NCBI GenBank assembly: GCA_007136405.1
Contig: SLHA01000087.1
Span: 1 to 64,000 of the forward strand
DNA length: 64,000 nucleotides
From: Candidatus Latescibacterota bacterium
Lineage (GTDB): Bacteria; Latescibacterota; UBA2968; UBA8231
Reading direction: 5' to 3'
This document shows, in pieces, positions 23,442 through 46,562 of the stretch. Each line of letters begins with the position of its first letter. Position 1 is the stretch's first letter. Made by a program: the position numbers and the translations under genes. The notes below the pieces were generated by a model, which was not told the DNA's origin, searched no databases, and saw only the letters and a program-made list of their open reading frames with translations.

Positions 23442-23449
23442 TGAATGGA

Positions 23450-23824
23450 TTACTTGAGTTTGGACTGCAGCAGGGACAGCAGCACATCGCTGTCCAGTGG
23501 TTTCTGCAGCACCCCGGACAGACCGAGCGATCGGGTATCGATCATGCGGCTCAGGTTGTCACCGGTGGAACTCAACATGAAAATCGGCGCGGTGTTGCCC
23601 ATGGCTTTGAGCTCGGTCACCAGCCCCGTTCCGGAGTCGATCTCCTCCATCATCAGGTCTACGATCAACGCGTCCGGGGAGGTCTCCACGTACCGGCGCT
23701 TGCCTTCCTCGGCGCTGCCGGCGGTCTTGACCACATAGTCGCTGGCCTCCAGCACCACCTTGAGGTACTCGAGGATGTCTGGATCGTCATCCACACACAG
23801 GATCACGTACTTTCCGTCTTGCAT
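23450..23824 (-). CDS. Single-domain response regulator
   Basis: ILCVDDDPDILEYLK; IVDLMMEEIDSG; LQKPLD. Confidence 0.88.
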   Translation of the reverse strand: MQDGKYVILCVDDDPDILEYLKVVLEASDYVVKTAGSAEEGKRRYVETSPDALIVDLMMEEIDSGTGLVTELKAMGNTAPIFMLSSTGDNLSRMIDTRSLGLSGVLQKPLDSDVLLSLLQSKLK

Positions 23825-28893: not shown

Positions 28894-29047
28894 GTCAACC
28901 TCGTCTTCTCCGGACGCGGTGAGTAGAAAAAACGAACTGGCGTTGCACTGCTACACAATGAAAGAGCGCAACACTGCGGAAGCAAAAAAAGCTCCACATC
29001 GATGCTCAGTTGTGGTGGCCGGACCGCGATTCCGCCGGACCGGGTTA

Positions 29048-29092
29048 ACGTTATGAGTTTCACAATCTCGGAAATCATCTGCATCCCGGCAA
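29048..29092 (-). promoter_or_regulatory. Candidate hox promoter with single Rex-like box
   Basis: minus strand TTGCCG-N17-GAGATT with TTGTGA-AACTCA-TAACGT (29065-29048) sharing the last TT of the -10. Confidence 0.6.
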
Positions 29093-29345
29093 GGGGCGCG
29101 TCGACTGACAGCAACCCGGAGACGCCGCTGGCGACAGCCGCGCGCCAGTTTCTGCCTGCGATAACCGCGGCCAGGGGCCACAGCCTGTGCTGCCGGGAAA
29201 TACCACCGCCGCTTTTCTCTCAGGAGCAGTCTGGCCTACGGCCGGGAGAGCTTCCTACAACCATCCTACTCCGAAGTGAACCCATCAACGGCGCACTTAA
29301 GCGACGTTTCTTCCAGGTGCGGGCCGGCCACAGGCCGGGGGTTGC

Positions 29346-29407
29346 TTGACAGGCGAACAGACGGTGCTTAGCTTGTTAATCCTGTAACGTTGTGATTTTT
29401 TTCACAG
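29346..29407 (+). promoter_or_regulatory. Candidate promoter with 35-bp tandem Rex operator (orphan)
   Basis: TTGACA-N17-TAGCTT; operator TTGTTAATCCTGTAACGTTGTGATTTTTTTCACAG at 29373-29407. Confidence 0.75.
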
Positions 29408-29764
29408 ATACATAATAATACCATATACAGGCACCAAATACAGACGCCAACCCGAAAAGCAGGTCACCGCCTGCCCTGGCCGGCAGGCCGCATACGCCCA
29501 AACACGCCGGCCGACACGCCAGACAAAGAACCGCCATAATCCGCCCATGCATGCCTTGACATCCCAGACCGGACGCAGCCGACAGCTCGGACGCAGTCGC
29601 ACGCAGGCTCGACACCGGCCCACCACCCGATACGACCCGCCCCAGGACCCGGGTCAAGCATGATACATCCAACAAGAAGACGGGCTACACAAGAAACTTC
29701 CCGAGCACCATAGCCAGGAAACCCTCTGAGCATCCCAGCCAGCAACTCCCTGACCGAAACCCCC

Positions 29765-29826
29765 TTGACTGATGCCGTCATCCCCCATAGTTTGTTATGC
29801 AATTCACAACGTTACTGCTTTCACAA
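29765..29826 (+). promoter_or_regulatory. rex-hyd promoter with 35-bp tandem Rex operator
   Basis: TTGACT-N17-TAGTTT; operator TTGTTATGCAATTCACAACGTTACTGCTTTCACAA at 29792-29826. Confidence 0.8.
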
Positions 29827-29848
29827 ATCCCTCACGGGAGATTGTAGG

Positions 29849-30499
29849 GTGAGTCGCAGACAGGCGGTTTCTCCTAAATGCATCTCGCGCCTGAGTCTCT
29901 ATGGGCGGTTGCTGTCCACGGGCGTCGGCAGTACCAGCGGACGGGTCTATTCCCATGAACTCGCGCGCCTGGCCGGAGTTTCTGCCGCACAGGTCCGGCG
30001 GGATATCATGGGTCTGGGATGCTCCGGAACGCCCAATACGGGATACGATGTTCAGGCTCTGGGGTCGATCATCACGGAATACATCCATACACCGGAGGGC
30101 CAGCGGGTCGCCCTGGTCGGAGTCGGCAACCTCGGCAAGGCCATACTCACGTATTTCAGCCATGGCAGTAAGACCCGCCTGCGGCTGGTGGCCGCGTTCG
30201 ACACCGCCCGGGACAAAACCGGCCGCGTGCTGCACGGATGCCGATGTCACCCCATGGAGGAAATGAGCGACGTAATCCGCCGCGAAAACATCACGGTGGG
30301 CATCATCACCGTGCCGGCGGATGTCGCCCAACAGACCGCGGATGCGCTCATCAATGCCGGGGTAACCGGCATCCTGAACTGCGCGCCCGTGGCGCTCCAG
30401 GTTCCCGCCCGGGTATATGTGGAGAATCTGGACATCACCATCAAGCTGGAAACCGTCGCATTCTTTGCGCGTAGTGGCAGACCTCAGGCGGACGGTTGA
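29849..30499 (+). CDS. rex: Redox-sensing transcriptional repressor Rex
   Basis: RLSLYGRLL..VYSHELARLAGVSAAQVRRDIMGLG..GYDV; VALVGVGNLGKAIL Rossmann motif; GTG start at 29849. Confidence 0.92.
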   Translation: MSRRQAVSPKCISRLSLYGRLLSTGVGSTSGRVYSHELARLAGVSAAQVRRDIMGLGCSGTPNTGYDVQALGSIITEYIHTPEGQRVALVGVGNLGKAILTYFSHGSKTRLRLVAAFDTARDKTGRVLHGCRCHPMEEMSDVIRRENITVGIITVPADVAQQTADALINAGVTGILNCAPVALQVPARVYVENLDITIKLETVAFFARSGRPQADG

Positions 30500-30535
30500 T
30501 CCCGCACCCGCCACCTATCCTGTGGAGTGAGCGCC

Positions 30536-31027
30536 ATGGCACAAGTGACCAGTGAGAAGTACGAGGCCATCCTGGATCGGCATCAGGAGGCCGGACGCGA
30601 CCACCTCATCCCCCTGCTGCAGGAGTTGCAGGACATGGAGGGGTACGTGTCCCGGGAAGCGGTTCTTGCCATCGGTCAGCACCTGAAGTTGCCGGCAAGC
30701 AAGATCTACGGAGTAGCTACGTTCTACAACCAGTTCCGGTTCCAGCCCCAGGGGAAATACCATTTCATGGTATGCCGCGGCACGGCCTGCCATGTCAAGG
30801 GCTCTGACAAGGTGCTGGACATGCTGGTCAAGCAGCTGGGGATCGGACCCGGGGAAACCACACGCGACAGGCTGTTCAGCCTTCAGGTGGTCGCCTGCAT
30901 GGGTGCCTGCGGCCTGTCTCCGGTGGTCAACCTCAATGGTGAATTCTACGCCAAGGCAACCCCTGCCAAAGTCGCCAGCATCATCCATGAATGTCGGGAG
31001 AAGGAGTCGGTCCATGCAGCCGGGTGA
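30536..31027 (+). CDS. hydC: NuoE/HydC-like 2Fe-2S subunit of bifurcating hydrogenase
   Basis: YGVATFYNQFRFQPQGKYHFMVCRGTACHVKGS; VACMGACGLSPVV. Confidence 0.9.
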   Translation: MAQVTSEKYEAILDRHQEAGRDHLIPLLQELQDMEGYVSREAVLAIGQHLKLPASKIYGVATFYNQFRFQPQGKYHFMVCRGTACHVKGSDKVLDMLVKQLGIGPGETTRDRLFSLQVVACMGACGLSPVVNLNGEFYAKATPAKVASIIHECREKESVHAAG

Positions 31028-34000
31028 AAGGCAGAAAACGGGAAACGGCAGATCCAACCGGTGCTGGGATGTGCCCCAGGCACCGGATCTGGCCCTTCTG
31101 AAAATGCTCCGGACGGGCAGTCTGGCCGTGGCTACCAGCGAAGACGAGCAGACTCTGAATGAGCGCATCGCCGTCCTGCGGCGCCAGCAACTGGCGCAAC
31201 CGGTCGTCTATATCGGTGCCGGGACCTGCGGTCTGGGCGCGGGTGCGGCCAAAGTGATCGAGAGCGTCCACGCCTATCTGCGGGACCAGCAGGTAGAGGC
31301 GGAAGTAGTCGAAGTGGGCTGTGTGGGTCTGTGTTCCGAAGAACCCATACTGGACATTCAATTGCCGGGACGGCAACGCGTGTCCTTCGGCAACCTTACC
31401 GCCGAGGCGGTACCCGGCCTGCTCTCGCAGGTGCTGTCCGGCGTCATCCCGCCGGATCTGTTGCTGGGTCAGTTCCGGGACGAAAATCTGGTACCCTGGG
31501 AGGACGTTGCTTATCTGGACGAGCACCCCTTCATGGCGCCGCAGAAGCGCTGGGTCCTGGCCAACTGCGGTATCGTCGATCCGGCCAGCGCCGACGAATA
31601 CATCGCCCGGGGAGGCTTTGGTGCCATGGCCACGGCACTCTCCCAGTATACTCCGGACGAAGTCTGTGACATCGTCGAGAAAAGCGGCCTGCGCGGCCGC
31701 GGTGGCGCCGGGTTCTCCACCGGTACCAAGTGGCGTTTCGCGCGCCAGTCCGCCGCGGACCAGCGGTATCTGATCTGTAATGCCGACGAAGGCGATCCCG
31801 GGGCATTCATGGACCGGGCTGTGGCCGAAAGCGACCCGTACCGCCTCCTGGAAGGCATGGTAATCGCCGCCTATGCTATCGGCGCCACCAAGGCGTACAT
31901 CTACATCCGCGCGGAATACCCGCTGGCCATCAAGCGGCTCACGGATGCCATCGCCTGGGCTGAAAAGTGCGGCTTGCTGGGCGACAACATACTCGGCAGC
32001 GGCTTCAACCTGGACATCATCATCAAGATGGGTGCCGGTGCCTTCGTCTGCGGCGAGGAAACCGCCCTCATTCACTCCATAGAAGGTAAACGCGGCATGC
32101 CACGGCCGCGGCCACCATATCCCACCACCTCGGGCCTGTTCGGCAAACCTACCGTCATCAACAATGTCGAAACGCTGGCCAACATCGCCGCCCTGATGAC
32201 CATGGGCTGGGAACAGTTCAGTGCCATGGGAACGGCGAAGAGCAAAGGCACCAAGGTGTTCGCTCTGTCCGGCATGGTCAATCGCACCGGCCTGGTGGAA
32301 GTGCCGATGGGCACGGAGATCCGCCGCATCGTCTTCGAGATCGGTGGAGGCATTCCCAACAACAAACGATGCAAGGCGGTTCAAATCGGCGGTCCTTCCG
32401 GCGGTTGTATTCCGGAGGCGCACATGGAGCTGCGGTGCGACTACGAGGAACTCAGGGATTTCGGTGCCATCATGGGCTCAGGGGGGTTCGTCGTACTGGA
32501 CGAGACCACCTGCATGGTGGATCTGGCCAAGTATTTCATGGAGTTCATCCAGAGCGAAAGCTGCGGCAAGTGCATCCCCTGCCGTGAGGGCACGCGACGC
32601 ATGCTGGAGATCCTGCAGGCCATCACCCGATCGCGCCATCAGGAAGAAGGCATCGACGCGCTGATCCGTTTTCAGGGCGTGCTACAGCTTAGAGGCCTGG
32701 CCGATGTCATCCGTTCCACCTCGCTATGCGGTCTGGGCCAGACCGCGCCCAATCCGGTGCTCAGTACACTGCGCTGGTTCGCGGACGAATACGAAGCGCA
32801 TATCCAGGAAAGGCGCTGCCCATCGGGCACCTGCCGGGATCTGGCGGGAGCCCCCTGCCAGACCACCTGTCCGGTGGAAACCGAGGTGTGGCGCTACGTG
32901 GCTCATATCGGCCGCGGCGAGTATGAGGAAGCATATCGCGTCATTCGCCAGGCCAATCCCCTGCCATCGGTCTGTGCCCGCGTCTGCGACCATCCCTGCG
33001 AACAACTGTGCCGCGCCGGCAGCACCGGCGGCGAGCCTATCGCGGTTCGCAACCTCAAGCGCTTCGTCGTGGACAACGTGGATCCATCGGTATACAAGAC
33101 CATGGTCAAACCAGCGGCTCCAGATGCCCCACGGATTGCCGTGATCGGCTCCGGACCGGCCGGCCTGGCGGCAGCGCATTACCTTTCTGCGGATGGATAC
33201 CGCGTAACGCTCTTCGAGCGCGAGCAGATCCTCGGCGGCATGCTCACCAGTGCCATTCCGGAATACCGCCTCCCCCGGGAGGTCCTTGACCGGGAAATCG
33301 AGGCCCTGCTCAACGAGAACACCGAAGTCAAGCTCGGGACCGAGCTGGGCAGGGACTTCACCGTGAATTCCCTGCTGGCTGACGGGTACCGGGCCGTATA
33401 CGTAGCGCTCGGTTCACACCAGAGCCGCAAACTCGACGTTCCCGGCGAGGATGACATGGACGGCGTGTATCCCGGCATCGATTTCCTCAAGCGGTTCAAT
33501 CTCCACGGCGAACAGCTGGCCAAAGGGCGGGTCGGAATCGTCGGTGGCGGCAACTCGGCCATGGATGCGGCCCGCGTAGCGTTGCGTCAGGAAGGCGTGG
33601 ATTCGGTGACCGTGTACTATCGCCGTACCCGCAACGAGATGCCTGCATTCGAGGAAGAGGTAGAGGCTTGCCTGGAGGAAGGCATCGACATCCGGCCCCT
33701 GGTGGCTCCGGTACGGGTACTGTCCAGGGACGGCCGCCTTACCGGTCTGGAAATCATCCACAACCGTCTGGGCGAGCAGGACGAGAGCGGCCGGCGGCGG
33801 CCGGTGCCTGTCCCGGGAACGGAGGAGCAGATTCCTCTGGACACGCTTATCGTGGCTATCGGAGAGCAGCCGGAAGTAACCGTCCTGGATGGCTTGAACC
33901 TGTCCAGAAACGGCACGCTGTCCATCAACCAGGAGTCCTTCATCACCAACCGCGCCGGCGTCTTTGGCGGTGGTGATGTGGTAACCGGCTCCAACACGGT

Positions 34001-34292
34001 CATAGACGCCCTTGCCGCCGGCAAGAAGGCCGCCGTCATGATCGAACGCTACCTGACCGGCAGGCAGATGCGGGTGTTGCCCCGAACCGCACTTCCCAGC
34101 GTATACATCGAACCGGTGGCGTCCGGAGAGGACGGTGGGGAGATCGAGGCCCGCGTGGCGCCGCCCTGCCTGGCCCGCGACCAGCGGTGCACCAGTTTCG
34201 CCGAAGTCGAGCTGAGTATGAGCGAAGAGGACGCTGTCCGCGAGGCCAGAAGGTGCCTGCGGTGTGACTTGCATTTCACCCAGCCCAACTGA
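31014..34292 (+). CDS. HydB (NuoF-like, FMN/NADH) fused to GltD/NfnB-like FAD-NAD(P)H oxidoreductase
   Basis: 1092 aa uninterrupted; HydB motifs GRGGAGFSTGTKW, MGAGAFVCGEETALIHSIEG, ESCGKCIPCREGTRR; then PCQTTCPVETEV, GSGPAGLAAAHYLS, VGGGNSAMDAARVALR. Confidence 0.92.
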   Translation: MQPGERQKTGNGRSNRCWDVPQAPDLALLKMLRTGSLAVATSEDEQTLNERIAVLRRQQLAQPVVYIGAGTCGLGAGAAKVIESVHAYLRDQQVEAEVVEVGCVGLCSEEPILDIQLPGRQRVSFGNLTAEAVPGLLSQVLSGVIPPDLLLGQFRDENLVPWEDVAYLDEHPFMAPQKRWVLANCGIVDPASADEYIARGGFGAMATALSQYTPDEVCDIVEKSGLRGRGGAGFSTGTKWRFARQSAADQRYLICNADEGDPGAFMDRAVAESDPYRLLEGMVIAAYAIGATKAYIYIRAEYPLAIKRLTDAIAWAEKCGLLGDNILGSGFNLDIIIKMGAGAFVCGEETALIHSIEGKRGMPRPRPPYPTTSGLFGKPTVINNVETLANIAALMTMGWEQFSAMGTAKSKGTKVFALSGMVNRTGLVEVPMGTEIRRIVFEIGGGIPNNKRCKAVQIGGPSGGCIPEAHMELRCDYEELRDFGAIMGSGGFVVLDETTCMVDLAKYFMEFIQSESCGKCIPCREGTRRMLEILQAITRSRHQEEGIDALIRFQGVLQLRGLADVIRSTSLCGLGQTAPNPVLSTLRWFADEYEAHIQERRCPSGTCRDLAGAPCQTTCPVETEVWRYVAHIGRGEYEEAYRVIRQANPLPSVCARVCDHPCEQLCRAGSTGGEPIAVRNLKRFVVDNVDPSVYKTMVKPAAPDAPRIAVIGSGPAGLAAAHYLSADGYRVTLFEREQILGGMLTSAIPEYRLPREVLDREIEALLNENTEVKLGTELGRDFTVNSLLADGYRAVYVALGSHQSRKLDVPGEDDMDGVYPGIDFLKRFNLHGEQLAKGRVGIVGGGNSAMDAARVALRQEGVDSVTVYYRRTRNEMPAFEEEVEACLEEGIDIRPLVAPVRVLSRDGRLTGLEIIHNRLGEQDESGRRRPVPVPGTEEQIPLDTLIVAIGEQPEVTVLDGLNLSRNGTLSINQESFITNRAGVFGGGDVVTGSNTVIDALAAGKKAAVMIERYLTGRQMRVLPRTALPSVYIEPVASGEDGGEIEARVAPPCLARDQRCTSFAEVELSMSEEDAVREARRCLRCDLHFTQPN

Positions 34293-34324
34293 CCTTGGGG
34301 GCTGCATACAGTCGAGGATTAGAG

Positions 34325-36046
34325 ATGGTCAATATAGAAGTAAACAAACGCAAAGTGGAGGCCAAAGAAGGTGAGACTCTTCTCACCGCTCTGCGGCGCG
34401 AGGGCATTCACGTGCCCACGCTGTGTCATGTCGATGGCCTTACTCCCACCGGTGCGTGCCGGCTTTGCGCCGTGGAGGTGGAGGGAGCGCCGGCCCTGGT
34501 TCCCTCTTGTTCGTTTCCGGTGAGCGAGGGGATGAAGATCCAGACCCATTCCGCCCGCGCCCTGGAAGCTCGTCGCACCATAGTGCAACTGCTCCTGTCG
34601 AATCATCCGGACGACTGCCTGTATTGCATCCGCAATGGTGGCTGCGATCTGCAGCAACTGGCGCAGGAGCTGGGCGTCAGGCAGCGTCTGTTCAGCGGCA
34701 AACGCAGTGTGGGCAAGCTGGATGTGTCCAGCCCCTCCATCGTACGCGATCCGGACAAATGCATTCTGTGCGGCAAGTGCGTGCGGGTCTGCGAGGAAGT
34801 ACAGGGCGTGGCGGCCATCGACTTCGCCCGCCGCGGCAGCCAGGCCACGGTGGCCACCGCCTTCGACACCGGTCTCAATCTGTCCAGCTGCATCAACTGC
34901 GGCCAGTGCATCATCGCCTGCCCCACGGGCGCCCTGGCCGAACAGTCACACATCGACCGGGTGATGCGCGCTATCCGCGATCCGGAGAAAACCGTGGTGG
35001 TCCAGCATGCGCCTGCGGTATCGGTCACCATAGCCGAGGAGTTCGGCTTGAAGCGGGGCATCGACGCGAACGGGAGCATGGTCACCGCACTGCGGCGCCT
35101 GGGCTTCGACCGGGTCTTCGATACTTCGTTCACCGCCGATCTCACCATCATGGAGGAAGCCTCAGAGCTGGTGCAGCGTATTCAGACCGGCGGTGTGCTG
35201 CCCATGCTGACCAGTTGCTCCCCCGGCTGGATCAAGTTCGTCGAGCAGTTTTATCCGGATTTCGTTCCCAACCTGTCTACCTGCAAAAGCCCGCAGCAGA
35301 TGCTGGGCGCGCTGGCCAAGTCCTACTGGGCCGAACAGGAAGGCGTGGATCCGGCCAACGTATTCTCCGTCTCGATCATGCCCTGCGTGGCCAAGAAGTT
35401 CGAGATGGGCCGTCCGGAACACGGTCACGACGGCCAGGCCGACATCGACGCGGTATTGACTACGCGCGAGCTGGCCCGCATGATCAAGACTGCAGGGCTC
35501 AGCCTGGAAGACCTGCCGGCCGGCAAGGCCGATTCACCCCTGGGCGAACGCACTACGGCAGGCAAGATATTCGGTGCCACCGGCGGTGTCATGGAGGCAG
35601 CGGTACGTACCGCGCACTACCTGATCACCGGAGAAGACCTGCCGGATCTCAAAATCCAGCCCCTCCGGGGAACACAAGGCATCAAGGAGGCGGCAGTGGA
35701 GATCGCCGGTATTCGTGTCGGCGTAGCCGTGGCCAGCGGCCTGGGTAATGCGCGCCAGCTCATCGAACAGATCAGGAATGGCCGGCAGGATCTGCACTTT
35801 ATCGAGATCATGACCTGTCCCGGCGGATGTGTCGCCGGAGGCGGCCAGCCTCTGAACACAGACCAGGACATGGTCAAAGCTCGTTTGCAGGCCTTGTACT
35901 CCATCGATCGGGACGAGACGGTGCGCACCAGCCACGCCAACACCGAGGTCGCCAGGCTGTACGAGGTCTTCCTGGGCGAACCGCTGAGCCACAAGAGTCA
36001 CGAACTGCTGCATACGCACTACACCAAGCGCGAAGTCCTCATCTGA
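34325..36046 (+). CDS. hydA: [FeFe]-hydrogenase catalytic subunit HydA
   Basis: H-cluster motifs TSCSPGW, MPCVAKKFE, EIMTCPGGCVAGGGQP; N-term 2Fe-2S and His-ligated 4Fe-4S. Confidence 0.94.
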   Translation: MVNIEVNKRKVEAKEGETLLTALRREGIHVPTLCHVDGLTPTGACRLCAVEVEGAPALVPSCSFPVSEGMKIQTHSARALEARRTIVQLLLSNHPDDCLYCIRNGGCDLQQLAQELGVRQRLFSGKRSVGKLDVSSPSIVRDPDKCILCGKCVRVCEEVQGVAAIDFARRGSQATVATAFDTGLNLSSCINCGQCIIACPTGALAEQSHIDRVMRAIRDPEKTVVVQHAPAVSVTIAEEFGLKRGIDANGSMVTALRRLGFDRVFDTSFTADLTIMEEASELVQRIQTGGVLPMLTSCSPGWIKFVEQFYPDFVPNLSTCKSPQQMLGALAKSYWAEQEGVDPANVFSVSIMPCVAKKFEMGRPEHGHDGQADIDAVLTTRELARMIKTAGLSLEDLPAGKADSPLGERTTAGKIFGATGGVMEAAVRTAHYLITGEDLPDLKIQPLRGTQGIKEAAVEIAGIRVGVAVASGLGNARQLIEQIRNGRQDLHFIEIMTCPGGCVAGGGQPLNTDQDMVKARLQALYSIDRDETVRTSHANTEVARLYEVFLGEPLSHKSHELLHTHYTKREVLI

Positions 36047-36051
36047 CAGGT

Positions 36052-36450
36052 ATGAATATGAGCGACGACAAGAAGATCCTTATCGTAGACGACGACGCGG
36101 ACCAGCGCGAGATCCTGGCCATCGAACTCCAGAGTGCCGGTTACCAGGTGCTTACGGCCGAGGGCGAATCCGCGGCCGAAGACTTGCTGATGTCCACCCG
36201 GCCGGACCTGGCGGTGGTTGATCTGATGATGGACAACATGGACTCGGGTTTCGTCCTTTCGCATCGCATCAAGCAACTATACCCGGAAACCCCGGTCATC
36301 ATCCTTACCAGCGTGGCGGCGGAAACCCGGCTGGAATTCAACATCGATCCGGACGACAAACAGTCATGGATCAAGGCGGACGCCTGGATCGACAAACCGG
36401 TTCGTGCCGAACAGTTGTGCGGCGAGATAGAGCGGCTCCTCAACGCCTGA
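36052..36450 (+). CDS. Single-domain response regulator
   Basis: ILIVDDDADQREILAIEL; VVDLMMDNMDSGFVL; IDKPV. Confidence 0.9.
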   Translation: MNMSDDKKILIVDDDADQREILAIELQSAGYQVLTAEGESAAEDLLMSTRPDLAVVDLMMDNMDSGFVLSHRIKQLYPETPVIILTSVAAETRLEFNIDPDDKQSWIKADAWIDKPVRAEQLCGEIERLLNA

Positions 36451-36553
36451 GACCCGCTCCCGCCATCGCCTTCCAGCCGCGGCTACGACGGTCTGCCTGA
36501 ACCCGAGCAAACCGGCCGGCCGCCGTAGCCTGCGCCGCTCTACGGAGAAAGAC

Positions 36554-37417
36554 GTGTACGAAATCCTGCACAAGGAACGCCTGAACCCGACCTGCCACCT
36601 GATGGTCGTGGCCGCGCCGGGAGTGGCACGCAAAGCCCGGGCCGGACAGTTCGTCATCGTGCGCACGGACGAGTACGGTGAACGCATTCCGCTGACCATC
36701 GCCGACTTCGACCGCGATAAGGGCACCATCACCATCATCCTTCAGGAAGTGGGCAAATCCACCATGGAGATGGGTACCCTGCGTGTCGGAGACGGATTGG
36801 CCACCTTTGCCGGTCCGTTGGGCCATCCCACCGAAGTTCAGCAGTACGGAACCGTGGCCTGCGTGGGCGGCGGCGTGGGCATCGCTCCGCTGTTTCCCAT
36901 CACTCGAGCCCTGAAGGAGGCCGGCAACGAAGTCGTTTCCATCATCGGCGCCCGCTCCAGTGATCTGCTCTTCTGGGAAGAGCGCATGGAGTCGGTGAGT
37001 AACCGCCTGATCGTATGCACGGATGACGGCAGTCGCGGCAGGCAGGGAGTGGTGACCGAGCCGCTCACCGAGCTCCTCGAGGAGCGGCCGGGTCAGATAG
37101 CTCGCGTCTGGGCTATCGGACCGGCGATCATGATGAAATTCGCATCTCTGGCCACCCGCCCTTACAAGGTGCCGACGATCGTCAGCCTGAACACCATCAT
37201 GGTCGACGGCACCGGCATGTGCGGTGGCTGCCGGTGCCTGCTGGAAGACGGCGCCCGGTTCGTCTGCGTCGACGGCCCGGAATTCGACGGCCACAAGGTG
37301 GATTGGGACAACCTGCTTTCGCGCCAGCAGTTCTACCGGGAGGAAGAGCAGCAGGCCGTGGAGCGCTGGCAGCACCGCTGCCAGCTCGACGAAGCCGTGG
37401 CCAGGGGAGGGAGCTAA
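36554..37417 (+). CDS. nfnA: NfnA-like ferredoxin-NADP+ reductase subunit alpha
   Basis: GTG start; RAGQFVIVRTDEYGERIPLTIAD; GGGVGIAPLFPITRAL; GTGMCGGCRC. Confidence 0.88.
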   Translation: MYEILHKERLNPTCHLMVVAAPGVARKARAGQFVIVRTDEYGERIPLTIADFDRDKGTITIILQEVGKSTMEMGTLRVGDGLATFAGPLGHPTEVQQYGTVACVGGGVGIAPLFPITRALKEAGNEVVSIIGARSSDLLFWEERMESVSNRLIVCTDDGSRGRQGVVTEPLTELLEERPGQIARVWAIGPAIMMKFASLATRPYKVPTIVSLNTIMVDGTGMCGGCRCLLEDGARFVCVDGPEFDGHKVDWDNLLSRQQFYREEEQQAVERWQHRCQLDEAVARGGS

Positions 37418-38872
37418 GTGGCTGAACTCACGAACAAGGAACGGATGCGCATACCGCGGCAGGACATGCCGGTCCAGGATGCCGCCGCGCGTCGCGCCAA
37501 CTTCGACGAGGTGGCCCTGGGGCTGGAAACCGAAGCAGCCCGGCTGGAAGCTGAGCGGTGCCTGCAGTGCTCCAGGCCGCGGTGCGTCGAGGGATGTCCG
37601 GTGGATGTGGACATTCCCGGTTTCATCGAGGCTGTGCGCACCGGGAACCTGTCCGAGGCAGTGCGCATCATGAAAACCCGGAACAGCCTTCCGGCCATCT
37701 GCGGCCGCGTCTGCCCCCAGGAGACACAATGCGAACAGTTGTGCATCCTGGGCAAAAAGGGTGAACCCGTGGCCATCGGCCGGCTGGAACGGATCGTAGG
37801 AGACTGGGAACTGCGCGAGCGCACGCAGGCGCTGGAAAAAGCCCCATCCACCGGCAAGCGCGTCGCCGTCGTCGGTTCGGGGCCGGCGGGTCTCGTGTGC
37901 GCGGTGGATGTAGCTCGCCAGGGCCATGACGTCACCCTGCTGGAATCGCTGCACCTGCCGGGAGGGGTGTTGACCTACGGCATACCGGAGTTTCGGCTCC
38001 CCAAGAGCGTGGTCATGGGGGAGATCAACCATGCCATCGAGAACCTCGGGATCAGGCTGTGCGTCGACCATGTCATCGGGCGCATCGCCACGCTGGCTGA
38101 ACTGCTGGACGAATACGACGCGGTCTTTCTTGGCACCGGCGCCGGCTTGCCCTCGTTCATGGATATTCCGGGTGTCAACCTCAACGGCGTCATGTCGGCC
38201 AACGAGTTCCTCAGTCGCGTCAACCTGATGCGCGGATATGACTTCCCTCAGTACGACACCCCGGTCAAGATCGGCGAACGGGTGGTCGTCATCGGCGCCG
38301 GCAACGTGGCCATGGATGCAGCCCGTTGCAGCATTCGTCTGCAGGAACTGCACGGAAACGGCCGGGGAGAGGTGCATATCGTGTACCGCCGGTCGCGGGA
38401 GGAGGTACCAGCCCGTGCCGAAGAGGTGGATCATGCGGAGGAAGAAGGAGTCATTTTCGACTTCCTGACCAATCCCGTCGAAATCATGGGCGATGAGGCC
38501 GGCAAGGTCACCGGGATGCGATGCATCCGCATGCAGTTGGGTGAGCCGGACGACTCCGGGCGACGCCGGCCGGTACCCGTCGAAGGATCGGAATTCGACC
38601 TGCCGGTTGACACCGTCATCTTCGCTCTGGGCACAAGCCCCAATCCTCTGGTCTTCGTGGAGGCGGAGTCGTTGTCGCGCAGCAGATGGGGCACGGTGAT
38701 CGCCGACGAGGAGACGGGACGAACCACCACAGCACGGGTCTGGGCCGGCGGTGATGTTGTCACCGGAGCGGCAACGGTCGTCAGCGCCATGGGAGCCGGG
38801 CGGCGTGCCGCCGCCGACATCCACGCTTTCCTGGCCGGCGAACTGGAGCCATGGAGCGACTCCGAGACCTGA
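37418..38872 (+). CDS. nfnB: NfnB/GltD-like NADPH-dependent oxidoreductase
   Basis: CLQCSRPRCVEGCPVDVDIPGFI; GSGPAGLVCAVDVARQGHDV; GAGNVAMDAARCSIR. Confidence 0.9.
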   Translation: MAELTNKERMRIPRQDMPVQDAAARRANFDEVALGLETEAARLEAERCLQCSRPRCVEGCPVDVDIPGFIEAVRTGNLSEAVRIMKTRNSLPAICGRVCPQETQCEQLCILGKKGEPVAIGRLERIVGDWELRERTQALEKAPSTGKRVAVVGSGPAGLVCAVDVARQGHDVTLLESLHLPGGVLTYGIPEFRLPKSVVMGEINHAIENLGIRLCVDHVIGRIATLAELLDEYDAVFLGTGAGLPSFMDIPGVNLNGVMSANEFLSRVNLMRGYDFPQYDTPVKIGERVVVIGAGNVAMDAARCSIRLQELHGNGRGEVHIVYRRSREEVPARAEEVDHAEEEGVIFDFLTNPVEIMGDEAGKVTGMRCIRMQLGEPDDSGRRRPVPVEGSEFDLPVDTVIFALGTSPNPLVFVEAESLSRSRWGTVIADEETGRTTTARVWAGGDVVTGAATVVSAMGAGRRAAADIHAFLAGELEPWSDSET

Positions 38873-38888
38873 GACCGGATGCGGACTG

Positions 38889-38927
38889 TTGACATCACCC
38901 GCATGCGGTGTATCCCGCCGCATGCGG
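38889..38927 (+). promoter_or_regulatory. Candidate promoter of the hydrogenase-domain kinase with two palindromic operators
   Basis: TTGACA (38889-38894) N16 TATCCC (38911-38916); CCGCATGCGG at 38899-38908 and 38918-38927. Confidence 0.55.
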
Positions 38928-39051
38928 CAACCGTCACCTGGGTTGGTGGGTGCCGGGTTCGAATGTGGCCGGTTTGGTGCGGCAGTCTGCTCCTTCGTCG
39001 TGATCGAAAGGAGACCGCTAGCGTGCACATTCTTCCTGCGACCGTTGCCCT

Positions 39052-41049
39052 ATGAAAGGCTCCGCGACACTCGCTCTGATCAACACCGTGCGCGACCGCT
39101 GTAAGACGTGTTACCAGTGTGTGCGCGAGTGTCCGGCCAGAGCCATTCGCATCGTCGAAGGGCAGGCCGATGTCATCCCTGAGCGTTGCATCGGTTGCGG
39201 CAATTGCGTAAGGGTGTGCAACCAGCACGCCAAGATCGCCGTCAGCGCTGCGGATGAAGTCATGGCGCTGCTCCGGTCTCCGCACCGGACAGCTGCGATC
39301 GTGGCACCCAGCTTTCCCGCGGAGTTCGCCGAAATCGACGCCTCCGTCCTGGTCGGCATGCTGCGCTCCCTGGGCTTCGACATGGTCTGCGAGGTGGGCT
39401 ATGGCGCCGACCTGGTGGCGCTGGAGTACCGACGGCTACTGGATCGCAACGACGGCAGACGCTACATTGCCACCACCTGCCCCGCCATCGTCTGTTTCGT
39501 AGAGAAATACTATCCGGATCTGGTGCCGGCCCTGGCTCCCGTGATCTCACCTATGGTCGCCGCGGCGCGGGCGCTGCGCCAGGACCACGGTGACGCTCTG
39601 CACACCGTGTTCATCGGTCCATGCCTGGCCAAACGGCGCGAGGCTCTGAGCGAGGAACTACAGGGGGAAGTCACCCAGGCCATCACCTTTGCCGAGTTGC
39701 GCACCCTGTTCGACCTGGCCAGCCTGACACCGGTCCAGATCGTTCCCAGCGATTTCGATCCGCCACAGGCTCACATGGGCGCCGTGTTCGCCGTGAAGCG
39801 AGGTCTGCTCAAGACGGCCGCCATCGACGAGGATCTGATCACTAACGATGTGATCAGTGCCGGCGGCACCTATCAGTTCGAAGAGGCCATACGGGAATTC
39901 GCCGCGGAGGGCATGACGCCTCGCCTGTTGGAGGTGCTGTGCTGTAACGGCTGCATCATGGGAGCCGGCATGACCACCGAGGCCAGCATGCTGACGCGAC
40001 GCATCCGTGTGGCGCAGTTCGTCAAACAGCGCCTTCGCGACCTGGACTGCAGCCAGTGGAAGGACAGCATAGACCGCTTCTCGGCTCTGGACATGTCGCG
40101 CCGTTTCCTGGCACAGGACCAGCGCATGCCCATGCCATCCAGAGGGCAACTGGCGGAAATTCTGCAACGCATGGGTAAAACCAAACCCGAGGACGAGCTC
40201 AACTGCGGCGCCTGCGGCTACGCCACCTGCGACGAGCACGCCACGGCAGTGTATATGGGGCTGGCGGAAAACGAGATGTGCCTGCCGTACGCCATCGAGC
40301 AACTGCACACGACAGTTGACGAACTTAACTTATCCAACCAGGAGCTGGCCAGCGCCCAGGAGGCGCTCGTTCAAGCGGAAAAGCTGGCCAGCATGGGCCA
40401 ACTCGCTGCGGGTATCGCCCACGAGATCAACAACCCGTTGGGAGTTGTCCTGATGTACGCACACCTGTTGCTGGAGGATGCTGCCGACAACGAGCTGCGC
40501 GAGGATCTGCGCATGATCGCCGAGGAGGCGGATCGGTGCAAGAGCATCGTCTCCGGTCTGCTTGATTTCGCCCGGCAGAATCGCGTCATTCGCACGCCCG
40601 TGGACGTCAACGATCTGGTCGTCAAAACGCTCCGGGCCCTGCCTCCACCGGACGGGATCGAAGTCAGGACCGAATGCCACCTGGAAGATCCCATCGCCGA
40701 ACTGGACAAGGACCAGTTCATACAGGTCCTCAGCAACCTGATCACCAACGCCTACACGGCCATGCCCGAAGGAGGCACGGTTACCGCCAGCCTGGAAGGG
40801 GATTCCGACTCCATATCGTTGCGTCTCAGCGACACCGGAGTCGGGGTACCGGCGGAGAACCTGGAGAAAATATTCCACCCCTTCTTCACCACCAAACAGA
40901 TCGGCAAAGGCACGGGCCTGGGCCTTGCCGTCACGTACGGGATCGTCAAGATGCACCGGGGTACTATTCACTGCGAATCCAATGCTGACCCCGCCGCCGG
41001 GCCCACCGGCACCACGTTCACCGTGACCATGCCGCGCCAGGGCGAATAG
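39052..41049 (+). CDS. Sensor histidine kinase with N-terminal [FeFe]-hydrogenase-like domain and additional 4Fe-4S domain
   Basis: 2x4Fe-4S ([23 protein letters not shown]); H-cluster-like [72 protein letters not shown]. Confidence 0.92.
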
Positions 41050-41192
41050 GGCGGTCACGGACTGGCTGTTCGCTCGAGCTCCGGTGGACCGACCAGACGG
41101 TGCGGCTCTGGATGCCGGCAACCTGTCCGCTTGTCGCCCCGTGACGGTCTGTCAGAAATCCCGTTGGGGGTAACGCGAAGAGAAACCAAGCC

Positions 41193-42356
41193 ATGACGGA
41201 AACGCTCAATGTGCTCGTCTGCGATGATGAGCCGGGGATGCTCAAAGGTACCGAGAGGGCGCTGAGACGGCACCAGATCGAGCTAGTCGACTTGCAGACG
41301 ACCGTTGCCTTCAACGTCGTAATGGCGGATTCCGGCGAAAAGGCGCTGGAGCGAATCCAGGCGGAACGGCCGGACATACTCCTGCTCGACTACAAGCTGC
41401 CGGGTATCTCCGGACTCGAAGTGCAGGAACAGCTGGCGCAGCAGGGACTGGATATACTGACCGTGATGATCTCGGCGTACAGCTCCCTGCAGACCGTCAT
41501 CACAGCCACCAAGCGCGGCGCCTTCGACTTCGTGGTCAAACCGTTCACTCCGGACGAGTTGCGCACCACGGTCCAACGTGCAGCGCACCATCTCCTGCTT
41601 CACCGCCAGGCGTTACGGCTGGCGGAAGAACGCAAACAGATCCGTTTCGAGTTCATTCGTGTCCTGGGACACGAGCTCAAGGCGCCGCTGGCCGCGGTAG
41701 AGGGGTACATGCGGCTGTTGGAGAAACAGGCCCTGGGAGACCAGATCAGCCAGTACGGGCATATCGTCGAACGCAGCCTGATCCGTCTGGACGGCATGCG
41801 CAAGCTGATCTATGACCTGCTGGATCTGACCCGCATCGAGTCGGGCAAGAAGCAGCGGGATCTGGTGTCGGTCGATGTATGTGAAGCGGTGCGGATGGCT
41901 GTGGAGACAGCGTTGCCAGAGGCGCAGGAACGGCAGATCAGCATCCATGCCGACATTCCTGACGAGTTGACCATGCATGCGGACCGGGGTGAACTGGAGA
42001 TCATCCTCAACAATCTGCTGTCCAATGCCGTCAAGTACAACAAGGACGAGGGATCGGTTACCATCACGGTAGCAAACCAGGGCGATCAGGTCCGGATCGA
42101 CGTCGCCGACACCGGCATCGGCATGAGCCCGGAGGAATCGGCCAGACTGTTCAACGAGTTCGTCCGCATCAAAAACGAGAAGACCGCGTCCATACTGGGC
42201 AGCGGTCTGGGTCTGTCCATCGTCAAAAAACTGGTGGCGCTGTACGGGGGAACGATCTCCGTAGCCAGCGAGAAAGACGTCGGCACGACCTTCACCGTGG
42301 TATTGCACAAGGAGCCGCACGCGCAGGAGGCAACCGTACAGGCAGCCGGCGCCTGA
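41193..42356 (+). CDS. Receiver-histidine kinase hybrid
   Basis: receiver VLVCDDEPGM..LLLDYKLPGISGLE; GHELKAPLAAVEGYM; GSGLGLSIVKKLV. Confidence 0.88.
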   Translation: MTETLNVLVCDDEPGMLKGTERALRRHQIELVDLQTTVAFNVVMADSGEKALERIQAERPDILLLDYKLPGISGLEVQEQLAQQGLDILTVMISAYSSLQTVITATKRGAFDFVVKPFTPDELRTTVQRAAHHLLLHRQALRLAEERKQIRFEFIRVLGHELKAPLAAVEGYMRLLEKQALGDQISQYGHIVERSLIRLDGMRKLIYDLLDLTRIESGKKQRDLVSVDVCEAVRMAVETALPEAQERQISIHADIPDELTMHADRGELEIILNNLLSNAVKYNKDEGSVTITVANQGDQVRIDVADTGIGMSPEESARLFNEFVRIKNEKTASILGSGLGLSIVKKLVALYGGTISVASEKDVGTTFTVVLHKEPHAQEATVQAAGA

Positions 42357-42397
42357 ACGCATTACCTGCCGGTGCTTAATGTTTTCTGGCCAGCAGC

Positions 42398-42429
42398 CCG
42401 GCCGCCGGCGCCCTGACACCGGCGGCCGG
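42398..42429. terminator. Very stable hairpin after the hyd gene block (no U-tract)
   Basis: CCGGCCGCCGG-CGCCCTGACA-CCGGCGGCCGG, 11-bp perfect stem. Confidence 0.55.
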
Positions 42430-42519
42430 TACCGGTCACATTGTGTTTCCTGCCTGGCGCTCATTCAGTCGAATGCATACTCCCGATCCGTATACAGCCC
42501 GTACGTGCCCGTCCCATAG

Positions 42520-44046
42520 ATGAACAACATCGACTACGCCGTTTTCTTCGCCTACATCCTGTCGATCCTGACTCTAGGGTTCTATCATGCCAGGCGTAGC
42601 CAGGGGTTCCTTGAATTCTTCCTGGCCGGCCGGTCGATGCACTGGTTTCCCATCGGCATCTCCATCATGGTAACGGCGTTCAGCGCCATCAACTACACGG
42701 CTTTCTCCGGCGAAGTCTTCGCCAACGGCTCCTACGTACTGCTATCCCTGCCTGTTTTCGTCCTGGTGGCATGGCCCGTGACCCGCGTGATCATGCCCCT
42801 GTACCACAGCATGAATGTCAGCAGCGCCTACGAATACCTGGAGAGACGTTTCGACGTACGCGTCCGGCGCGTGGCCAGCGGTCTGTTCATCCTCTGGCGT
42901 CTGCTCTGGATGGCCACGCTGATCTACGTGCCCTGTACCGTCATGGCCCTGATCACCGGCATCGACACCAGCATTCTCATCCTGCTCGCCGGAGCGATCG
43001 CCACCGTATATACCCTGGCAGGCGGCATGCGAGCGGTCATGTGGACCGATGTCATCCAGTTTTTCGTCCTCTGCGGCGGTGTGATTCTCAGCATCGGCAT
43101 CGGCTCCTGGCGGCACCCAGACGGCCTGACCGGCATGCTGCAATCCGGCATCGATGCCGGTCTTGGGCGCCCCTTTCATCCGTTCGATGCGCGCATGTTC
43201 GCGCTGGATCCCACCATTCGCATCACCCTGTGGAGTAGCTGGATAGGCACCTTTGTCGCCTTTCTGGCCCGGTACGGGGCGGATCAGGTGGTCGTGCAGC
43301 GGTATTTCACCGCCCGCTCCCTGCACCATGCCCGGCGTGGCTTCCAGGTAAACTACATCAGCGCCATCTTCGCCCTGTTGTTGTTGGGATTGATGGGTTT
43401 CGCCATCCATAGCCACGCCGTGACCGCCATGCCGACGGCACACGGTGGCGCCCCGCCAGTATTTTTTTTCAGCCAGTTCGTCCGCTCCCTGCCTGTTGGT
43501 GCAACCGGACTGATCGTCGCCGGCCTCTTCGCTGCCACCATGTCGAGCATCGACTCCGGCATCAATTCATGCACCGCCGCACTGATCTCGGATTTCTACC
43601 GGCAGCGCCAGAACCCGGAAAAGGGGCCCGGCGAACTCTTCCTGAGCCGCGCCGGAGTGGTGCTCTTCGGCAGCCTGGCTACATTTCTCAGTCTTCATGT
43701 AGGACGGTTGGGCAGCATCTTCGAGATCGCCAACCGCATCATCAATGCCATGGGGAGTCCGCTGCTGGCTCTTTTTCTGCTGGGGCTTTTCTCGCGTCGC
43801 GTCAATCGCCTCGGTGCCGCCGCGGGCGGTCTGCTTGCCACTATCGCCAGCGCCTGGATCTGCTTCACCGTGGACCCGCTGGCCCTGCACTATTACGCCG
43901 TGGCCAACTTGCTGGTCTCGCTTGCGTTGATCTATGGTTGCAGTCTGATCGAAAACGCGTTCTATGCTCCCCCGTCACCGGCCCAACTGGGCTGGACATG
44001 GTATGGACGCGCCTGGAGCGAAGCCCCACCCGACAGGAGTGCGTAA
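42520..44046 (+). CDS. Sodium:solute symporter (SSS) family transporter
   Basis: 508 aa multi-TM; DYAVFFAYILSILTLGFYHARRSQGFLEFFLAGRSMHWFPIG. Confidence 0.88.
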   Translation: MNNIDYAVFFAYILSILTLGFYHARRSQGFLEFFLAGRSMHWFPIGISIMVTAFSAINYTAFSGEVFANGSYVLLSLPVFVLVAWPVTRVIMPLYHSMNVSSAYEYLERRFDVRVRRVASGLFILWRLLWMATLIYVPCTVMALITGIDTSILILLAGAIATVYTLAGGMRAVMWTDVIQFFVLCGGVILSIGIGSWRHPDGLTGMLQSGIDAGLGRPFHPFDARMFALDPTIRITLWSSWIGTFVAFLARYGADQVVVQRYFTARSLHHARRGFQVNYISAIFALLLLGLMGFAIHSHAVTAMPTAHGGAPPVFFFSQFVRSLPVGATGLIVAGLFAATMSSIDSGINSCTAALISDFYRQRQNPEKGPGELFLSRAGVVLFGSLATFLSLHVGRLGSIFEIANRIINAMGSPLLALFLLGLFSRRVNRLGAAAGGLLATIASAWICFTVDPLALHYYAVANLLVSLALIYGCSLIENAFYAPPSPAQLGWTWYGRAWSEAPPDRSA

Positions 44047-44136
44047 GAGTCGAAGCCACCCCCTGCAGGACCGCGCGAGATCCGAACCGTCAGGGCCCGA
44101 CGCCGATACGTACGTTGTCGAAGCCACCCAGTGCTC

Positions 44137-44197
44137 TTGACCGTTTCTGCTCCAAATCTATATTGTTATATATGTAACATTGTTATTTTTTTCACAA
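44137..44197 (+). promoter_or_regulatory. TonB-receptor promoter with 35-bp tandem Rex operator
   Basis: TTGACC-N16-TATATT; operator TTGTTATATATGTAACATTGTTATTTTTTTCACAA at 44163-44197. Confidence 0.78.
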
Positions 44198-44216
44198 ACA
44201 AAGGGGCATACCGGCA

Positions 44217-46562
44217 ATGAACCTGCGTCACTCGTTCCTCGTGCTGTACCTTGGCTTGTTGATTCCGGTCCAGGCGGCCGCGAACACGCTGCACGGCCTG
44301 GTAGTCGATGCCAGCGACAATCGCCCCCTGGCCGGAGCTCGCATCACCCTGGCGGGTACCAATCTCAGCACCACAGCCAACGCCGACGGCACGTTCTACT
44401 TCGCCTCAGTGCAACCCGACAGCCTCGTATTGACCATCACGCATGTAGGCTACGAAACACGCACTATCACCCTGTCGCTCTCCACCCTGGGAGACCGGGC
44501 CGTCCAGGTAGAGATGACCCCGGACCTCCGTCCGGTCGCCGGAGTCATCGTCACCGCGCGCAGTCGCCACGCCGCACCGGGCGATCTGGGCGGCTCTGCG
44601 GCTATACTATCCGGACCCGCGCTGATGGACGGGCAGCCCCTGTCCATTGCCCATTCAGCGAGCATCGTGCCAGGCGTCTCGCTGGGACAGGACATGCCGT
44701 GGAGTGCGCGGCCTCACGTGCGCGGTCTGAGCCGAGACCATGTGGCTTTCCTGGTGAACGGCAATCGTGTATCCACAACGACCGAACTCGCCGCCCAGTA
44801 CGGCACGGTACCACCCGCTGACGTCGAAAGGCTGGAGATCCTGAAAGGTCCCGTGTCGGTACTGTATGGCACCGGATCCACCGGCGGTGTGGTCAACGTT
44901 ATACCGCACAGCGGTAGATTCGCCCCCACCCCGCGCTGGTCCGGCGCCACGAACACCGGTTATGAATCCGGATCCGGCGGGCTCAGCGGCTACGCCCGGA
45001 TCGGCCTGGGGATGCCGAGGCTGTATCTCATGCTATCCCAGTCGTATCGCGACTATGGCCCGTATGTCGACGGCCGTGGAGACACCGTTCCCAACAGCCA
45101 ATTCCGGGACTATCAGACTCACCTCAACGCGGGGTACCAGGTGAGTGCGACACAGACGGTCGACGTGCGGTACCAGTGGTTCGAGGCACGGGATGTAGGC
45201 ATACCCGGTGCCGGCGGCATCTTCCCGGTCACCGCGAAGGTCTCCTATCCGCGCACACGGCGTCAATTGGCGGAAGCCACCTGGACATGGCGACCTGTCC
45301 ATCCGGTCTTGCAGCAGTCGGAGATTCGACTGTTCCGGCAGAGTGTCGACCGGCGCGTCGAAGTCGAACCCAACATCGTCAGCTATCTGCCGGCCACGGA
45401 TACGGCCCCGCTGCGGCGCGTTCGTCCTCAGCTGATCCAACCCGGCGCCGACCATGACACCCGCGGTTTCCGCTGGAACCACATGCTTGCCTTGGGAGAC
45501 CATGACCTGGTCGTGGGCCTGGAAGGCTGGGAGAAGGAACTGCAGTCTCTCCGGCGCCGCATCAACGATATCGACATCCTGGCGCCGGACAGCTCGCTGG
45601 TGACCACCAACCGGGTCATACTCGAAGATCGCAGTCTGCCCAACAGCACCTATCGTCCGCTAGGCGGCTACATCGAGCACGAGTTCACCCCCACGCCTCG
45701 ACTGACGCTCAACAGCGGTCTGCGACTGGACGTCATCCAGATCGACAGCGAGACCACGTACATCAGCTATACCCCCCCCAGTGATCGGGTTTTGTGGCAC
45801 GCAGAGACCGATCGGGACTACTCCTTCAGCGCCCAGTTCCGCGCCACCCATCGCCTCAGGTCGCACTGGAAAGCGCATCTCAACCTGGCACGCTCGTTCC
45901 GTTCGCCAGGCCTGGAAGAACGCTTTCTGTACGTTGATCTTGGGAGCCTGGTACGCATCGGTGATCCGGCGCTGGACAGCGAAAACGGGTATTTCGTGGA
46001 GGGTGGCCTGAGTGCGCGCACCAGCCACCTGGTGTGGAACGGCCAGGCCTATGTCAACCGCATCCGTAATATGGTGATCGAAACCCCGGCGGAATTCGAA
46101 GGACGCCCGGCTCGACGCAAGACCAATGCCGGCAACGCCCTGCTGCTGGGAGGCGAAACCGACCTTGCCGTAGTTCCGCACCGCGATGTGCTGCTGACCG
46201 CTACCGCCGCGTACGTGCGGGGCACGGACACCCTGGAAGACGATCCACTACCTGCTATTCCCCCCTTCAACGCACGGCTCGCCGTTCGTTACGGTCAGCG
46301 CGCATGGTACGAAGCCGCCTGGAACTGGAAAAGCGCCCAGAACCGGGTGGCTCCCGGAGAGCAGAAAACTCCTGGCTACAGGACGCTGTCCCTCACGGCC
46401 GGCCGCTCCGGTCTGCGGCTGGGTCCCGTTCAGCATCGGTTCACGTTGAGCGTGGAGAATCTTCTCGACCAAACGTATAGCGACCACCTCGCCACCTCCC
46501 GCGGATTCGAGCTCAATGCACCGGGCCGCTATTTTTCCATGTCATGGTCCACCGAGTTCTAG
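44217..46562 (+). CDS. TonB-dependent outer-membrane receptor with carboxypeptidase-regulatory-like N-terminal domain
   Basis: signal peptide; LHGLVVDASDNRPLAGARITL; plug VERLEILKGPVSVLYGTGSTGGVVNVI; C-terminal Phe. Confidence 0.9.
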   Translation: MNLRHSFLVLYLGLLIPVQAAANTLHGLVVDASDNRPLAGARITLAGTNLSTTANADGTFYFASVQPDSLVLTITHVGYETRTITLSLSTLGDRAVQVEMTPDLRPVAGVIVTARSRHAAPGDLGGSAAILSGPALMDGQPLSIAHSASIVPGVSLGQDMPWSARPHVRGLSRDHVAFLVNGNRVSTTTELAAQYGTVPPADVERLEILKGPVSVLYGTGSTGGVVNVIPHSGRFAPTPRWSGATNTGYESGSGGLSGYARIGLGMPRLYLMLSQSYRDYGPYVDGRGDTVPNSQFRDYQTHLNAGYQVSATQTVDVRYQWFEARDVGIPGAGGIFPVTAKVSYPRTRRQLAEATWTWRPVHPVLQQSEIRLFRQSVDRRVEVEPNIVSYLPATDTAPLRRVRPQLIQPGADHDTRGFRWNHMLALGDHDLVVGLEGWEKELQSLRRRINDIDILAPDSSLVTTNRVILEDRSLPNSTYRPLGGYIEHEFTPTPRLTLNSGLRLDVIQIDSETTYISYTPPSDRVLWHAETDRDYSFSAQFRATHRLRSHWKAHLNLARSFRSPGLEERFLYVDLGSLVRIGDPALDSENGYFVEGGLSARTSHLVWNGQAYVNRIRNMVIETPAEFEGRPARRKTNAGNALLLGGETDLAVVPHRDVLLTATAAYVRGTDTLEDDPLPAIPPFNARLAVRYGQRAWYEAAWNWKSAQNRVAPGEQKTPGYRTLSLTAGRSGLRLGPVQHRFTLSVENLLDQTYSDHLATSRGFELNAPGRYFSMSWSTEF

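Follow-up and report, generated by a model that had tools for sequence, protein, structure and literature searches.

The kinase-linked class of sensory [FeFe]-hydrogenases is known in outline. HydDB already carries the label "histidine kinase-linked (putative)" for its group C1 (PMC5037454), in which the H-domain is linked to a histidine kinase and often adjoins a group A hydrogenase. Group C1 proteins with a HATPase_c domain have also been reported from Hydrogenedentota, where H-cluster motifs could hardly be found (PMC11406978). Sensory enzymes of groups C and D normally lack the residues C299, M353, and M497 (PMC8163306, PMC10055695), and the reported signature of the sensory M2e and M2f enzymes is Cx2Cx4Cx16C (PMC8163306). 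In Ruminococcus albus, growth at high H2 reportedly requires a related protein, HydS, which also appears to regulate HydA2 (PMC11837493). No experimental study of a kinase-fused protein of this kind was found in a search of the open-access literature.

The window (the whole analyzed stretch of 64,000 nucleotides, from a Candidatus Latescibacterota bacterium) encodes a protein that can be compared with these systems. Judged by its sequence, it has the group C1 features of an Fe_hyd_lg_C H-domain, a fused kinase, and four ligand cysteines, whereas the usual CxxxC spacing is absent. TmHydS of Thermotoga maritima (group C, M2f) likewise has two [4Fe-4S] sites, an H-domain, and a Cx2Cx4Cx16C domain, and it likewise has a small residue at C299, Gly at M353, and no M497 (PMC10055695). 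However, TmHydS, which was compared by description, contains a PAS domain, whereas the kinase of the window sensor is joined directly. TamHydS of Thermoanaerobacter mathranii (group D, M2e) has the same iron-sulfur layout and is likewise tied by its operon to a group A hydrogenase (PMC8163306). However, it lacks a fused output domain and, as a member of a type marked by Ser or Thr at M353, has Ser there, whereas the window sensor has a fused kinase and G189. A group C3-like (phosphatase-linked) sensor on contig C107 of the same genome (L004/L108) has the same sensory domains and is 34% identical over ~410 residues. Unlike the window sensor, it carries CEGGC (CxxxC) in L3 and no kinase, and a SpoIIE-like gene follows it. 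The kinase half is nearest to ZraS/AtoS-type kinase cores (ZraS, PDB 9jfj, 34% identity), whose input domain is unrelated. We give a probability of about two in three to the reading that the window protein is a cytoplasmic group C1-type histidine kinase that senses H2, has a complete H-cluster, and controls the adjacent operon through a phosphorelay.

The sensor gene and its hydrogenase operon

The sensor gene is a single intact ORF that starts with ATG, has no internal stops, and shows a coding-type GC3 of 0.78 (Table 1). An earlier note on this DNA had proposed a hydrogenase-derived sensor kinase within a hydrogenase operon, and this description is borne out by the Pfam domains found in one ORF and by the HydA gene upstream. 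Its account of the individual parts also holds. The N-terminal ferredoxin sites retain all eight cysteines (C17, C20, C23, C27 and C46, C49, C52, C56), which are invariant in 57 homologues, and the iron-sulfur domain behind the H-domain has exactly the Cx2Cx4Cx16C pattern, with its four cysteines invariant across an alignment of 108 homologues. The best Foldseek matches of the H-domain are the [FeFe]-hydrogenases CbA5H, DdHydAB, and TmHydABC. The kinase core is whole, with the H-box, N-box, and G1 and G2 boxes of two-component kinases all present, and H457, E458, N461, P462, N562/N566, D594-G596-G598, and G-T-G-x-G-L are invariant or nearly so in the 57 homologues. No PAS domain was detected between the iron-sulfur domain and the kinase in a Pfam scan. 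Similarly, the AlphaFold2 model (mean pLDDT 87.4, pTM 0.66) agrees with the proposed architecture, in that a hydrogenase fold and a ZraS-like kinase are joined by one helix, although this linker is the least certain region of the model (pLDDT 54-61 around residues 431-460).

Table 1. Positions of the sensor, its domains and motifs, and the surrounding operon in the window
Feature	Position	Strand	Basis
Rex redox-sensing repressor, upstream of hydCBA	29765..30499	+	NF003995, 188 bits
HydC, thioredoxin-like [2Fe-2S] ferredoxin	30527..31027	+	PF01257, 165 bits
HydB (NuoF-like) fused to GltD-like oxidoreductase	30792..34292	+	Pfam, NCBIfam
HydA, catalytic group A [FeFe]-hydrogenase	34295..36046	+	NF040763, 847 bits, over cut-off
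Single-domain response regulator, 132 aa, immediately after hydA	36052..36450	+	PF00072
Two FAD/NAD-binding subunits, NfnAB/SudAB-like, between hydA-response regulator and sensor	36554..38872	+	NF004862, 407.7 bits; TIGR01316, 584.7 bits
C1-type [FeFe]-hydrogenase-derived sensor histidine kinase, 665 aa	39052..41049	+	ORF, Pfam, full-length homologues
N-terminal 2x[4Fe-4S] ferredoxin sites	39100..39219	+	Fer4_10, residues 13-56
H-domain, Fe_hyd_lg_C, residues 80-305	39289..39966	+	PF02906, 140.8 bits, E 7.3e-41
A85-P86-S87, matching CpI A230-P231-S232	39304..39312	+	93/93 main-clade proteins with coverage
L1 ligand C143 (CpI C300); T142 in place of proton-relay C299	39478..39480	+	Alignment
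L2: C191 (CpI C355) and K194 (CpI K358); G189 replaces M353	39622..39633	+	Alignment; K194 in 94/94 main-clade proteins
L3, contracted: C298-N-G-C301 (CpI C499/C503), one residue deleted	39943..39954	+	Alignment, clade tree
C-terminal [4Fe-4S] domain, Cx2Cx4Cx16C: C385, C388, C393, C410	40204..40281	+	PF04060, residues 383-412
Single continuous helix, residues 411-476, from last Fe-S cysteine to DHp	40282..40479	+	AlphaFold2 model
HisKA, residues 448-509, phospho-acceptor H457	40393..40578	+	PF00512; H457 invariant
HATPase_c catalytic domain, residues 552-663	40705..41040	+	PF02518
REC-HisKA-HATPase hybrid kinase, 387 aa, after sensor	41193..42356	+	Pfam

The gene that follows the sensor encodes a receiver-kinase hybrid, as had been noted, and it is a probable phosphorelay partner; an SSF transporter and then a TonB receptor are encoded farther downstream. 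The gaps of ~140-180 bp on either side of the sensor gene make a single transcript plausible. The listed HydB ORF probably begins too far upstream. No Rfam elements were found in positions 28800-44300, and of the sigma54 sites matched in the window, none lies upstream of the sensor. Directly before the sensor, a GTG-started 10-codon ORF (39023-39055) lies behind a GAAAGGAG site and its TGA overlaps the sensor ATG, an arrangement that could possibly represent a leader or translational coupling. Elsewhere in the window (21546-23824, minus strand), a second kinase (GAF-HisKA-HATPase) and a single-domain response regulator are encoded among Hyp-like [NiFe]-hydrogenase maturation genes.

H-cluster motifs and the contracted L3 loop

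The three H-cluster motifs quoted in the earlier note are all present in the ORF (ATTCPAIV with C143, FIGPCLAKR with C191 and K194, and the L3 motif with C298 and C301). Its claim that four cluster cysteines are kept was correct, but the spacing in L3 was overlooked, which is CxxC and not CxxxC. Its emphasis on remodeled residues can be upheld only in part. The catalytic group A motifs TSC[CS]PGW, MPCxxKK, and ExMxCxGGCxxGGGQ are indeed unmatched, the M497 equivalent is also lost, and the protein scores 96.7 bits against the catalytic-class profile TIGR02512, for which the cut-off is 406 (NCBIfam). However, such differences are ordinary for the sensory groups C and D. The altered L1 and L2 motifs were rejected as a novelty, since they are the group C norm, and the unusual feature lies in L3.

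The spacing of L3 was judged from the alignment, in which every group A sequence has CxxxC, as do nearly all of the remaining group C sequences. When the sensor is set against LEMLACEGGCING, the two align unambiguously up to the first ligand cysteine, after which the sensor has one residue fewer. Each of the 94 main-clade proteins keeps all four cysteines (C143, C191, C298, and C301), whereas C297, the other half of "LCC", can be C, A, S, F, or Y. C298 is therefore the conserved ligand candidate, and the option that C297 is the canonical ligand throughout the clade, which would give CxxxC spacing, was discarded on the same grounds. This option is also countered by the stretch LE-x-L-A-C, in which the CxGC members can be aligned with the CxGGC members without a gap.

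A tree of 93 sequences (a quick search, with long branches present) places the CxGC proteins in one group with an SH-aLRT of 98, within which L137 is the lone CxGGC row. The one-residue contraction marks this clade and apparently has gone undescribed, as no description of a CxxC loop was found in the open-access literature. The scarcity of recognizable motifs in the group C1 proteins of Hydrogenedentota (PMC11406978) contrasts with the situation here, where a search that accepts CxGC in L3 shows all four ligand cysteines to be invariant. That study probably missed the motifs through the L3 contraction.

Relatives and conserved gene order

Full-length homologues with 40-59% identity occur in many phyla, which places the observation far beyond chance. 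A scan of GTDB contigs yielded at least 80 sensor loci, and those among the matches listed come from Planctomycetota, Lentisphaerae, Kiritimatiellota, Hydrogenedentota, Acidobacteria, Bacteroidetes, Marinimicrobia, Myxococcota, Deltaproteobacteria, Calditrichaeota, and others (about ten phyla overall). Several of the loci are from Hydrogenedentota MAGs, including CSSed162cmA_463 (L044), which is named in PMC11406978.

Classes of neighboring genes were set by sequence clustering, and representatives were checked. Among the matches listed, 74 loci extend far enough to show the upstream neighbor, and in 63 of them hydA is located just upstream of the sensor. Where enough downstream sequence is available (64 loci, again among the matches listed), a REC-HK follows the sensor in 50 and a response regulator adjoins it in 47. 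Rex is present in 36 and HydG in 28 of 79 such listed loci. The order HydA - sensor - RR - REC-HK is kept across phyla, and the recurrence of hydA, sensor, and REC-kinase therefore suggests a conserved hydrogenase-operon phosphorelay, which the earlier note had considered plausible.

The sensory module also swaps outputs. A kinase is present in most cases, but among sister proteins a sigma54 activator with a Fis HTH is found in L131 and L133, and a PAS-kinase-REC arrangement is found in L138. In L140 (5171-14903), hydG, hydE, and hydF are followed by a fusion of the sensor with a sigma54 activator and Fis HTH as the last gene of the operon, and then by a [NiFe] hydrogenase operon. An exact sigma54 consensus is located ~120 bp upstream of hydG, and the fused sensor is a probable one-component H2 regulator. 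Clade members in G103 and G108 lie beside genes for [NiFe]-hydrogenase maturation or membrane subunits, as recognized by sequence only.

Some relatives occur in more elaborate settings. Two tandem CxGC-clade sensors and several response regulators are encoded between Hyp-like genes and membrane hydrogenase-like subunits in G108 (L107:7761-12274, minus strand). Another sigma54-fused sensor (L145:6621-8897, minus strand), from a complete genome without HydA, HydF, and HydG (G420), adjoins chemotaxis genes that, as read from the starts of their sequences, are CheD-, CheB-, CheR-, and CheA-like. Bacteroidales paralogues (L073:3190-5127, minus strand, and 13 similar loci) are divergently oriented beside a SpoIIE-like gene and have lost K194, and the C298 ligand is lost in 4 of these 14. 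Because they are nested in the CxGC clade, linkage to a phosphatase seems to have arisen more than once.

The [2Fe] subsite, the signal, and its transfer

Residues A85-P86-S87 and K194 bear on whether a [2Fe] subsite is present, as their CpI equivalents A230-P231-S232 and K358 are located around its cyanide ligands. All 93 main-clade proteins with coverage have these residues and the four H-cluster cysteines unchanged. Five related CxGC or CxGGC sensors (L013, L134, L137, L138, and one in G258) keep the four cysteines, and the pocket is broken in every one of them. No group A HydA, HydG, or HydF was found in the genomes of these five (G121, G310, G420, G395, and G258), three of which are 98-100% complete, one 96%, and one 83%. 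Loss of the pocket coincides with absence of HydA and maturases at a Fisher p of 8e-8, a value that is uncorrected for phylogeny, the five sensors coming from no more than two or three lineages. The pocket is thus kept by selection where maturation is available, which favors a complete H-cluster in the window protein. Based on these sequence patterns, the H-cluster of the window sensor, held by a contracted CxxC loop, is most probably complete though catalytically detuned, and the conserved pocket favors H2 over general redox sensing.

The distribution of maturases must be read with care. HydG is over the cut-off in 43 of 57 clade genomes, but this co-occurrence was not accepted by itself as proof of a [2Fe] subsite because the HydA of the same genomes needs HydG too. 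Also, G388, in which HydG was found and HydA was not, was not relied on as a case where the sensor is the only client, given that this genome is 84% complete and HydF was not found in it. Neither HydF nor HydG was found over the cut-off in the window genome (87% complete) or in G048 and G052 of its phylum, and HydE is represented in all three only by a divergent HydE-like gene. That of the window genome, on contig C107 (L108:10674-12107), has a C-terminal thioredoxin-like ferredoxin extension. The window genome has five Fe_hyd_lg_C proteins and three canonical HydA, and G048 and G052 have several HydA each. Since the same puzzle holds for these catalytic enzymes, the missing HydF and HydG do not single out the sensor, and they may reflect either incompleteness or an alternative maturation route.

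An unlikely alternative is that the contracted loop holds a [4Fe-4S] cubane alone and that the protein senses redox state, O2, or NO. The residue deleted between the C499 and C503 equivalents might block [2Fe] binding, and the lack of detectable HydF and HydG in the window genome fits this proposal, as do the five sensors from genomes without HydA and HydF/HydG, which indicate that the fold can work without maturation. However, it is precisely in those five that the pocket, invariant in the main clade, has been lost, HydG is frequent in clade genomes, and one sensor (L140) is encoded within a hydGEF operon. The last point is no more than suggestive, because the HydF of that operon is the sole copy, and its hydGEF neighbors may serve a HydA on another contig.

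Other signals appear less probable still. The N-terminal ferredoxin sites could take electrons from HydABC or ferredoxin, such that the kinase reads reduced ferredoxin or NADH and the H-cluster is mainly an electron valve. The two [4Fe-4S] sites are intact and the operon includes HydABC, NfnAB-like subunits, and Rex, all of which suit this proposal, but relatives also lie beside [NiFe] hydrogenases without an adjacent HydABC. What these settings share seems to be H2, and the proposal is improbable. H-clusters bind CO, and the earlier note had listed CO as a candidate signal. This suggestion found no support and can be given very little credence, as both studied sensory enzymes are CO-tolerant (PMC8163306) and the constant neighbor is a hydrogenase. 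Overall, hydrogenases are the common thread in the neighborhoods of the relatives, which argues for H2 as the signal.

If the window protein is an H2 sensor with a complete H-cluster, then both the H-domain and the C-terminal [4Fe-4S] domain would change conformation in response to H2, or to the H2/H+ redox balance, at the cluster. In the model, a single helix leads from C410, the last cysteine of the C-terminal domain, into the DHp helix with H457, and through this helix the change would affect autophosphorylation or phosphatase activity. A conformational relay is preferred over a simple redox relay to the kinase, which is unlikely because the C-terminal cluster of TamHydS (group D) is not reduced by H2 (PMC13104023). 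Phosphate would then pass to the single-domain response regulator and the REC-kinase of the operon, and the output of this phosphorelay would adjust how strongly the adjacent HydABC operon is expressed or how active its products are. A broader picture can be offered tentatively, in which a large clade of H2-sensor kinases builds a full H-cluster on a CxxC loop, a departure from the [FeFe]-hydrogenases studied so far, with direct readout into the kinase along a single helix. Offshoots without maturases and the [2Fe] pocket would then have become [4Fe-4S]-only sensors, providing a natural comparison with and without [2Fe].

These proteins bear on the question of how sensory [FeFe]-hydrogenases convert H2 into a signal, for which the studied examples lack an output domain or use unknown partners. 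As the output is fused and probable receivers adjoin the sensor, H2-dependent autophosphorylation should be directly measurable in this clade. If the CxxC H-cluster assembles, the accepted minimal ligand motif would change, and the failure of motif searches to find these proteins would be explained. Furthermore, the conserved gene order suggests that this form of control over H2 metabolism is widespread among uncultured anaerobes.
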